Part shown: positions 20,766 to 22,420 of the stretch, piece by piece
How positions within the stretch are numbered: the first letter of the stretch is position 1
How the letters are laid out: each line of letters starts with the position of its first letter
Assembly (NCBI RefSeq): GCF_001905095.1
Contig: NZ_LWLS01000105.1
Coordinates: 62,001-126,000, forward strand
Reading direction: 5' to 3'
From: Micromonospora sp. CB01531
GTDB lineage: Bacteria > Actinomycetota > Actinomycetes > Mycobacteriales > Micromonosporaceae
Length of the DNA: 64,000 nucleotides
Notes under the pieces: generated by a model
The model's input: only the letters and a program-made list of their open reading frames with translations
Database searches by the model: none
What the model was told of the DNA's origin: nothing
Program-made: the position numbers and the translations under genes

Positions 20766-20825
20766 ATGAACGCTGTATCGATGTGGGTGCTCCCCCTTCC
20801 CGTCACGGTTGGGCGATTGACGTAG
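20766..20825 (+). CDS. 19-codon leader peptide of the rox gene
   Basis: A very short [22 protein letters not shown], with a much stronger ribosome-binding site (GAGGAGGTGAG, 20751-20761) than the enzyme gene behind it. It ends 50 bp before the rox start. Codons 7-12 (W V L P L P) lie exactly over the segment that can pair with the upstream arm of the hairpin before rox. This suggests a translated regulatory leader rather than a functional protein. I do not know this peptide from any described system. Confidence 0.55.
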
Positions 20826-20867
20826 GTGTCGCCGGGAGCGCCTCGCCAACAAGGCACTCCCGAAAGG
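20785..20867 (+). promoter_or_regulatory. Putative translational attenuator in front of rox
   Basis: Two mutually exclusive helices share one strand. Hairpin A pairs GGGAGCGCCT (20834-20843) with AGGCACTCCC (20852-20861), 9 of 10 positions, and sits directly against the weak rox ribosome-binding site GAAAGG (20862-20867). Alternative helix B pairs the leader codons 20785-20794 with the same 20834-20843, ten pairs including two G-U. A ribosome translating the leader would block B and allow A; a ribosome stalled on it, or altered spacing to RNA polymerase, would shift the balance. There is no U tract, so control of translation is more likely than termination. Confidence 0.55.
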
Positions 20868-20875
20868 CAACACCT

Positions 20876-22420
20876 ATGCACTCTCTGCAGTTCACCGCCG
20901 AGCCCTCATCGACCGATACGGTCGAGCGCGACTCCACCGCGGGCGACGTCCCCGCGCTCCCCTCGCCGGCCTCCGGCGCCGATCGCGCGCCCGTCATGTT
21001 CGACGTGATCATTGCTGGCTGCGGGCCGACTGGCGCGATGTTGGCCACCGAACTGCGGCTGCACGACGTGCGGGTACTCGTTCTGGAGAAGGAAACCGAG
21101 CCCAAGTCGTTTGTCCGCATAGTCGGTCTGCATATTCGCAGTCTCGAGCTGATGGCAATGCGCGGACTGCTTCAGCGCATTCTCGAACACGGAAGACAGC
21201 GTCCGGCCGGCGGTTTCTTCGCCGCCATCAACAAACCCGCGCCCAAGATCCTGGATTCCGCGCACGCCTATCTGCTGGGCATCCCGCAGCCGGTCATCGA
21301 ACGCCTGCTCGAAGAACATGCGATCGAGCTGGGTGCGCAGGTCCGGCGCGGTTGTGCGGTGGCCTACTTCGAGCAGGACGACGACGGTGTGACCGTCGAG
21401 ATGGCCGACGGGGAACAGCTGCGTTCGCGCTATCTCGTCGGCTGTGACGGCGGGCGCAGTACGGTGCGCAAACTGCTCAGCGTCGGCTTCCCCGGCGAGC
21501 CCTCGCGGACCGAGACGCTGATGGGCGAGATGGAAGTGGGTGTGCCGCAGGAGGAGATCGCCGCCAAGGTGACCGAAATCAACGAGACCCATAGGCCGTT
21601 CTGGCTCCGGCCCTTCGGCGCAGGGGTCTACAGCGTCGTCGTCCCCGCCGCGGGAGTCAGCGATCGCGCGGAACCGCCCACCCTCGAGGATTTCAAACAA
21701 GCGCTGCGCACCATCGCCGGAACCGATTTCGGCGTGCACTCCCCGCGCTGGTTGTCCCGCTTCGGGGATGCCACCCGGCTAGCCGAACGTTATCGGGTCG
21801 GACGGGTACTGCTGGCCGGCGATGCGGCACACATCCATCCACCCACCGGCGGGCAGGGCCTCAACCTGGGCGTTCAGGACGCATTCAACCTCGGCTGGAA
21901 ACTGGCCGCACAGATCCGTGGCTGGGCGCCGGAAACACTGCTGGACACCTACCAGGCCGAGCGTCATCCGGTCGCCGAGGACGTGCTGGACAACACCCGC
22001 GCCCAGATGGAACTGCTGTCCACCGAACCGGGCCCGCAGGCCGTGCGTAGGCTGCTCACCGAACTGATGGACTTCGACGAGGTGAACCGCTATCTGATCG
22101 AGAAGATCACCGCGATCGGCATCCGCTACGACTTCGGCACAGGCCCCGACCTGCTCGGCCGCCGCCTGCGCGACATCGACGTGAAACAGGGCCACCTCTA
22201 CGGTCTGCTGCATCGCGGCCGCGGCCTGCTGCTGGACCGCACCGAACGCCTGACCGTCGGCGGCTGGTTGGACCGGGTCGATTACCTCGGGGATCCCACT
22301 GCGGTACTGGATGCTCCGTGCGTCCTGCTACGCCCCGACGGCCACGTCGCCTGGATCGGCGACGATCAGCAGGATCTGGACGACCAGCTCTCCCGCTGGT
22401 TCGGCAAGCCCGCCAGCTGA
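20876..22420 (+). CDS. rox: Rifampicin monooxygenase (group A flavoprotein)
   Basis: The protein hydroxylates and linearises rifamycins using FAD and NAD(P)H, giving resistance. From residue 41 ([16 protein letters not shown]) it closely follows known Rox/RIFMO proteins: FAD turn [34 protein letters not shown], and [21 protein letters not shown], about 474 residues to the end. ATG 20876 gives 514 aa and has a ribosome-binding site (GAAAGG); ATG 20996 matches the usual family start but has none. The extra 40 residues have coding-like third positions, so 20876 is preferred. It is preceded by a leader ORF and attenuator. Confidence 0.9.

Follow-up and report, generated by a model that had tools for sequence, protein, structure and literature searches.

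The DNA analyzed is a 64,000-nt stretch of Micromonospora sp. CB01531 (GCF_001905095.1, contig NZ_LWLS01000105.1, positions 62,001–126,000 of the forward strand), referred to here as the window. It encodes a rox-like FAD monooxygenase on the forward strand (20876..22420) that matches NF033145 (rif_monoox) with 832.7 bits (cutoff, 800) and belongs to the paralogue termed clade A below. Its closest solved relatives are Rox enzymes, which align only from residue 41. Just upstream of rox, a TetR-type regulator (19760–20614, +) adjoins a divergent Tet(X)-like FAD monooxygenase (18701–19828, −), which scores 145.6 bits, far under the Tet(X) cutoff of 750. A UvrA-like ABC ATPase at about 16041–18482 (+) scores 695.7 bits against a cutoff of 729.8 and is of a kind sometimes termed drug-resistance UvrA paralogues.

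The rox gene is preceded by a leader ORF of 19 codons plus a TAG stop (20766..20825, +; ATG at 20766, TAG at 20823–20825). The leader Shine-Dalgarno (SD) sequence, GAGGAGGTGA (20751..20760, +), has a predicted duplex energy of −17.5 kcal/mol with an assumed anti-SD sequence, against −7.4 kcal/mol for the rox SD GAAAGG (20862..20867, +). These energies bear out the first-pass annotation, which had credited the leader with a far better ribosome-binding site than rox. Four segments on the forward strand can pair in alternative ways. Segment S (GAGACCC, 20759..20765) covers the leader SD/start and pairs with A (GGGTGCTCCC, 20785..20794, leader codons 7–10), which can also pair with B (GGGAGCGCC, 20834..20842), which in turn can pair with C (GGCACTCCC, 20853..20861). 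Because S:A is present as a third helix, the helix logic is 1:2 / 2:3 / 3:4. An outer stem, identified by folding and by an arm-swap test, joins TAGGTGT (20823..20829, +), which includes the leader stop codon, to ACACCTA (20870..20876, +), whose final base is the first of the rox start codon. The fold of 20766–20880 has a z of −2.9, and 1 of 200 dinucleotide shuffles is as stable. The hairpin at 20834–20861 and the competing A:B helix had each been described as 10 bp; both are present, but B:C has 8 of 9 pairs with a C·A mismatch inside and A:B has 9 pairs, one of them U·G. The outer stem and the S:A helix had been overlooked.

A protein search of 160 genomes of the same genus found rox-like genes in 133 at E ≤ 1e-100. 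Clade A comprises the 72 top-scoring listed matches (at least 789 bits, window included), all of which were examined; clade B comprises the lower-scoring listed rox matches, of which 17 (67–74% identity) were examined. Leader ORF, strong SD, hairpin, and competing helix are present at 72/72 clade-A loci, so the proposed conservation in related rox loci holds. The leader SD motif GAGGAGGTGAGACCC is exact in 70/72 and carries one change in each of the other two. The motif was found at 0/17 of the clade-B loci examined, and covariance model R1 gave no match to these 17 at E ≤ 10. Leader nucleotide identity to the window is 94.6%, compared with 87.3% at rox four-fold sites, and is higher in 28/28 loci (29 were tried; L034 was dropped because its anchor motif was not found). 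Upstream regions were scored for the 19-bp palindrome of the RAE against an assumed consensus. An RAE-like palindrome is found upstream of 17/17 clade-B loci (15–18/19) and was not found upstream of the 72 clade-A loci, window included, where the best scores are 11–14/19. The RAE is a rifamycin-responsive element that controls rox genes, according to two published accounts (PMC10719064, PMC8655204). Since it stands on clade B and was not found on clade A, the window gene is the paralogue without an RAE. RAE-type control of the window rox was rejected on these scores, and the idea that it senses a rifamycin or transcription-translation coupling found no support here, the RAE being on the other paralogue. 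The annotation "rifampin monooxygenase" may conceal a paralogue that answers to a different trigger and perhaps acts on a different substrate.

The leader extends well beyond the genus. By DNA similarity it was found in 224/300 genomes of the family (31/44 genera). Model R1, built from 58 leaders, matched 118/394 genomes sampled over the class (42/137 genera) and, over the phylum, 15/296 sampled genomes, each of which belongs to this class or to a nearer group. Building R1 was the sole use made of the RNAalifold consensus of A2, in which pairings were mixed and double changes absent. An exact-pattern scan of named genomes, whose pattern could not catch most hydrolase-1 and patatin leaders, gave at least 80 leader loci, among them loci of Streptomyces, Nonomuraea, Amycolatopsis, Saccharothrix, Kibdelosporangium, Streptosporangium, Actinomadura, Micromonospora, and Rhodococcus rhodnii; these partly repeat unnamed loci (e.g., L276 / L214 and L311 / L232). 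Recurrence in genomes of genus, family, and class led us to reject a window-specific accident. The leader also occurs in 37 records of a plasmid collection, and transfer surely occurs, since the copy on a 2.35-Mb Streptomyces record of that collection is 96.3% identical. Recent horizontal transfer as the sole cause of conservation is disfavored, divergent leader versions having retained the parts. Rfam 15 gave no match to 20600–21000 of the window at E ≤ 5; for 10 other loci at E ≤ 0.1 its sole hit was to a miRNA family and lay off the element (29.9 bits; gathering score, 78). No description of the leader was found in the open-access papers searched. The leader is a strongly conserved RNA element that is apparently undescribed.

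Two loci depart from the usual arrangement. At L126 (from about 279; G133:C2:3798372), an additional copy of the leader lies some 6 kb away from rox; its sequence is preserved as far as the leader stop and diverges beyond it, with loss of the hairpin. L140 (G017:C1:4722179) has the leader and first rox-like codons with no ORF of >150 residues at the expected downstream place, and is possibly a decayed rox.

The leader precedes six gene types: rox, alpha/beta hydrolases of types 1 and 2, GNAT, a PrmC-related methyltransferase, and a patatin-like gene. They represent five unrelated families, the two hydrolase types being related. Type-1 hydrolases are about 240–260 aa in most cases, and the nearest solved relative is an esterase. 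The PrmC-related gene matches "putative protein N(5)-glutamine methyltransferase" (TIGR03704, 409.3 bits; cutoff, 248.8), and the patatin-like gene matches PF01734 (40.9 bits; cutoff, 27.7). Downstream genes were inspected at 90 listed class places, the 30 best and 60 chosen with a preference for weak ones; because these places are partly hand-chosen, gene-type counts are not frequencies. The 30 best, one of which is the window, precede 22 rox, 4 hydrolase-2, 3 GNAT, and 1 hydrolase-1 genes. The named loci (80 listed of at least 80) precede 31 rox, 25 PrmC-type, 16 hydrolase-2, and 3 GNAT genes, with 5 unassigned, under a pattern that favors these four types. If the leader works as proposed below, it would link five enzyme families, mostly of unknown substrate, to one signal.

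The first 40 codons of the window rox (20876..20995, +) encode an N-terminal extension that resembles the N-terminus of the type-2 alpha/beta hydrolase (26/42 identical). In relatives, the rox extension of L136 and the hydrolase N-terminus of L125 are identical at 30/42 positions (score, 138; shuffles, ≤37), and the 40-residue extension is shorter or missing in some rox lineages. Most simply, this would reflect recombination of a rox gene into a hydrolase gene, whose promoter, leader, and first codons it acquired.

Reading frames were compared in 204 leaders from 203 places (the window is entered twice, as L005 and L176; 201 distinct sequences), with the position of B taken from an alignment. 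This set omits L126, L144, L173, and L174 (not captured by the cutting pattern), L131, L132, and L138 (trimmed too far), L145 (which repeats the L128 place), and the 30 loci of the DNA-similarity survey. All three reading frames are used for the core GGGUGCUCCC. As GGGTGCTCCC it stands in frame 1 in most leaders; the exceptions are frame 0 (4 GNAT, 6 PrmC, and 3 hydrolase-2 leaders) and frame 2 (8 patatin, 2 rox, and 1 hydrolase-1 leaders). The ORF itself is maintained: the first start-frame stop falls within −26..+3 of B in 201/204 leaders. Of the other three, two (L169 and L229) show no in-frame stop within the sequence read, and L243 has a stop outside that range. The start-frame stop lies by B in 21/22 PrmC-type leaders, against 3 and 1 of 22 for the other two frames; other-frame stops number 0 and 0 of 38 in hydrolase-1, 0 and 4 of 11 in hydrolase-2, 0 and 3 of 10 in GNAT, and 1 and 2 of 8 in patatin leaders. 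Rox leaders have 45 and 9 of 85, with TGACGTAG holding stops of two frames, so stop position is less telling in this family, where another frame often has a stop by the hairpin too. Among the 80 listed named loci, a partly overlapping set, the stop lies by B in 76 and the other 4 have no B by the pattern; the named PrmC type has it in 22/25 (other frames, 7 and 0). The TAG stop of L169 and L229, both hydrolase-1, is changed to CAG, and the frame continues into the hairpin. L221 and L174, before hydrolase-type genes, have shortened leaders that start with ATC and whose TAG stop overlaps the hairpin arm (CTAGGGAGCG).

Third codon positions are the least variable in the 59 indel-free clade-A leaders (0.061, 0.008, and 0.056 in three blocks), which runs contrary to selection on the peptide. 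A one-base deletion is present at eight clade-A loci, where the leader ends at a TGA five bases upstream; two loci carry compensating indels that alter the peptide and keep the RNA. With the core in three frames, the in-frame stop by the hairpin retained, and third positions least variable, the RNA seems to be selected rather than the peptide. An arrest-peptide attenuator of the erm/cat kind, with stalling set by a nascent MNxxxxWVLP peptide, would account for WVL being common in rox and hydrolase leaders and in some of the PrmC type. In other lineages this RNA is translated as xGCS or xGAP, and neither the quiet third positions nor the two loci with compensating indels suit such a peptide. 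As leaders differ in the frame in which they read the core RNA, with all three in use, a stalled nascent peptide is very improbable.

Leader starts also vary. The start-spaced codon of the 22 PrmC-type leaders is ATT in 10, ATC in 10, GTT in 1, and GTC in 1; near-cognate starts also occur in 3/11 hydrolase-2 leaders and in L221. Rox leaders have ATG or GTG in 85/85. The listed named loci, which partly overlap this set and were found with a pattern permitting C, G, or T as the third base of the start codon, have ATT or ATC in 25/25 PrmC-type and ATG in 31/31 rox leaders. From spacing and frame, we infer initiation at these AUU, AUC, GUU, and GUC codons.

Pairing was assessed in 105 representative leaders, selected from the 204 after 6 had been set aside. 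For A:B, 97.6% of 939 cells are paired, against 44–61% when slid. Its changes mostly retain a wobble pair, and a C-G to U-A exchange occurs in L211 and L266. B:C is paired in 83.0% of 904 cells. The first-pass annotation had looked to covariation in both helices: it is seen in B:C, where 10 cells are double changes and 0/500 shuffles have as many, and not in A:B, where the single double change is not above shuffles. The B:C shuffles ignore relatedness, and two of the other four measures are not extreme (100 and 334 of 500). For S:A, 92.7% of 731 cells are paired (only 81% in hydrolase-1 leaders), and none is a double change. The outer stem averages −12.4 kcal/mol with its own arms, compared with −10.3 kcal/mol with permuted arms (0/200 permutations). 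Within families, the corresponding counts of 200 permutations are 0 for rox, 12 for hydrolase-2, 17 for hydrolase-1, and 33 for patatin, and there is no advantage in PrmC (122/200) or GNAT (172/200); among single families, the outer stem clearly beats permutation only in rox. The attenuator layout recognized in the first-pass annotation is thus upheld by its presence at 72/72 clade-A loci, by covariation of hairpin and outer stem, and by recurrence before five other gene types.

We consider it probable that the leader is a portable ribosome-sensing attenuator: with a ribosome held at the leader start, A would pair with B and the enzyme start would be exposed. Without a ribosome, S:A and B:C would form, and B:C with the outer stem would hide the start region of the enzyme gene (OFF). 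Ribosomes running through the leader would cover A, and B:C would again form (OFF). A ribosome held at or near the leader start would cover S and leave A free; A:B would then form while B is being transcribed, C would stay free, and the enzyme would be translated. In 203/204 leaders, A begins 16–20 nt past the first start-codon base, a distance that would place it at about the edge of a ribosome parked on the leader start. The inducer would likely be a compound able to halt ribosomes during initiation or within the first codons.

Folding predictions show when such a switch could act. Before C is made, the family-mean probability of A:B is 0.00–0.42 with no ribosome, 0.78–0.97 with S and the start masked, and 0.00 with A masked, and the S/start mask raises it by >0.3 in 85/105 leaders. 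Once C is made, the equilibrium value under the S/start mask is 0.00–0.18 in rox, hydrolase, and GNAT leaders, 0.35 in patatin, and 0.57 in PrmC. Forcing A:B costs about 16 kcal/mol in the window, and in full-length RNA the S/start mask shifts mean accessibility of the enzyme start codon by ≤0.09. Given the low equilibrium A:B in full-length RNA, only a kinetic switch could work in this way. The prediction of A:B mainly ahead of C synthesis suits a co-transcriptional choice, and so could also fit transcription attenuation, with B:C as a pause or Rho-dependent termination signal and A:B as antiterminator, as in whiB7 leaders; actinobacterial whiB7 leaders with a uORF and terminator are described in a published account (PMC10727445). 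No terminator-like site was found in the window, and hairpin and outer stem enclose the gene start region and covary with it, which makes control of transcription improbable; control of translation would be the more likely. A scan of the window for an intrinsic terminator (GC hairpin followed by a U-run) found none, and an attenuator of that type was rejected.

Translational coupling would use the same parts differently. Leader ribosomes terminating at the hairpin base would open the outer stem and hand over to rox, so that brisk leader translation would raise rox translation. The stop by B in nearly all leaders (201/204) fits this, as does a mask for a terminating ribosome, which lifts predicted accessibility of the window rox start codon from 0.03 to 0.39. 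However, the mean stop-state effect is small in most families (largest, 0.26 to 0.43), and coupling leaves unexplained both the near-invariant A:B helix in three reading frames and the near-cognate starts of all examined PrmC-type leaders. We regard it as unlikely, and retain the ribosome-sensing attenuator.

Upstream sequences offer hints of the inducer. A promoter-like stretch at 20690..20728 (+) has GATAGG at 20690–20695, a −35-like TGGACG at 20699–20704, an 18-nt spacer, and a −10-like TAACTT at 20723–20728; it would place the transcription start near 20735–20737, upstream of the leader. A sigma-70 scan of the window found no site. WblC/WhiB7 activates genes against translation-targeting antibiotics. 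The published WblC consensus (PMC7157823) is GAAAWY, 3 bp, TKGMNN, 16–19 bp, TANNNT. The window promoter fits it only loosely, because it has GATAGG where GAAAGG is needed; many relatives have GAAAGG or GAAAAG at this place. A strict form (GAAA, 4–6 nt, then the −35) is present at 36/72 rox loci of the genus, 26/42 loci of a mainly-rox group (13 rox loci and the 29 class hits L175–L203: 22 rox, 4 hydrolase-2, and 3 GNAT), 17/38 hydrolase-1, 4/10 GNAT, and 2/11 hydrolase-2 loci, with 0.00 in composition shuffles. It was found at 0/22 PrmC, 0/8 patatin, and 0/17 RAE-type rox loci. The WblC-like promoters of relatives hint at ribosome-targeting drugs as the inducer. The first-pass annotation had raised a ribosome-targeting compound as one possibility; it fits better than a rifamycin, given WblC/WhiB7-like promoters in about half of the relatives and a leader common to unrelated detoxifying-type enzymes, although the match in the window itself is loose.

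A wider reading is offered tentatively, as a possibility that we do not yet favor. A class-wide, hitherto undescribed RNA would sense initiation-arrested ribosomes: a near-perfect SD would park a ribosome on the leader start, which is a near-cognate AUU, AUC, GUU, or GUC in all PrmC-type leaders examined, and occupancy, not peptide, would license unrelated detoxifying-type enzymes. The rox paralogue would have come under the leader by recombining into a hydrolase gene already so controlled, and its substrate may be a ribosome-targeting compound instead of a rifamycin. Should the leader act as a ribosome-sensing attenuator, the bacteria responsible for most antibiotics would have a large additional family of RNA regulators, and the inducer of the leader would be a direct route to the substrates of five enzyme families.

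Translational attenuators of the erm/cat kind have a leader ORF with a strong SD, alternative helices, and a weak resistance-gene SD beside a hairpin. The leader described here likewise has a strong-SD ORF and helices predicted to be mutually exclusive, one of which would hide the ribosome-binding site and start of the gene. It differs in that the core RNA rather than the peptide appears to be selected, with all three frames used, in its near-cognate starts in one gene type, and in its class-wide occurrence before five families. The RAE system is similar in standing upstream of rox genes, and differs in that the RAE is on the other paralogue (17/17 loci examined) and was not found at 72/72 clade-A loci. 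The whiB7 uORF attenuator (PMC10727445) is also actinobacterial, combines a uORF with alternative hairpins, and answers translation stress; here, no terminator was found, and the hairpin lies on the gene start region. The LEU element of actinobacterial leuA (PMC1262725) shares a leader ORF with alternative RNA structures, but has a run of leucine codons and a pseudoknot and serves biosynthetic genes.
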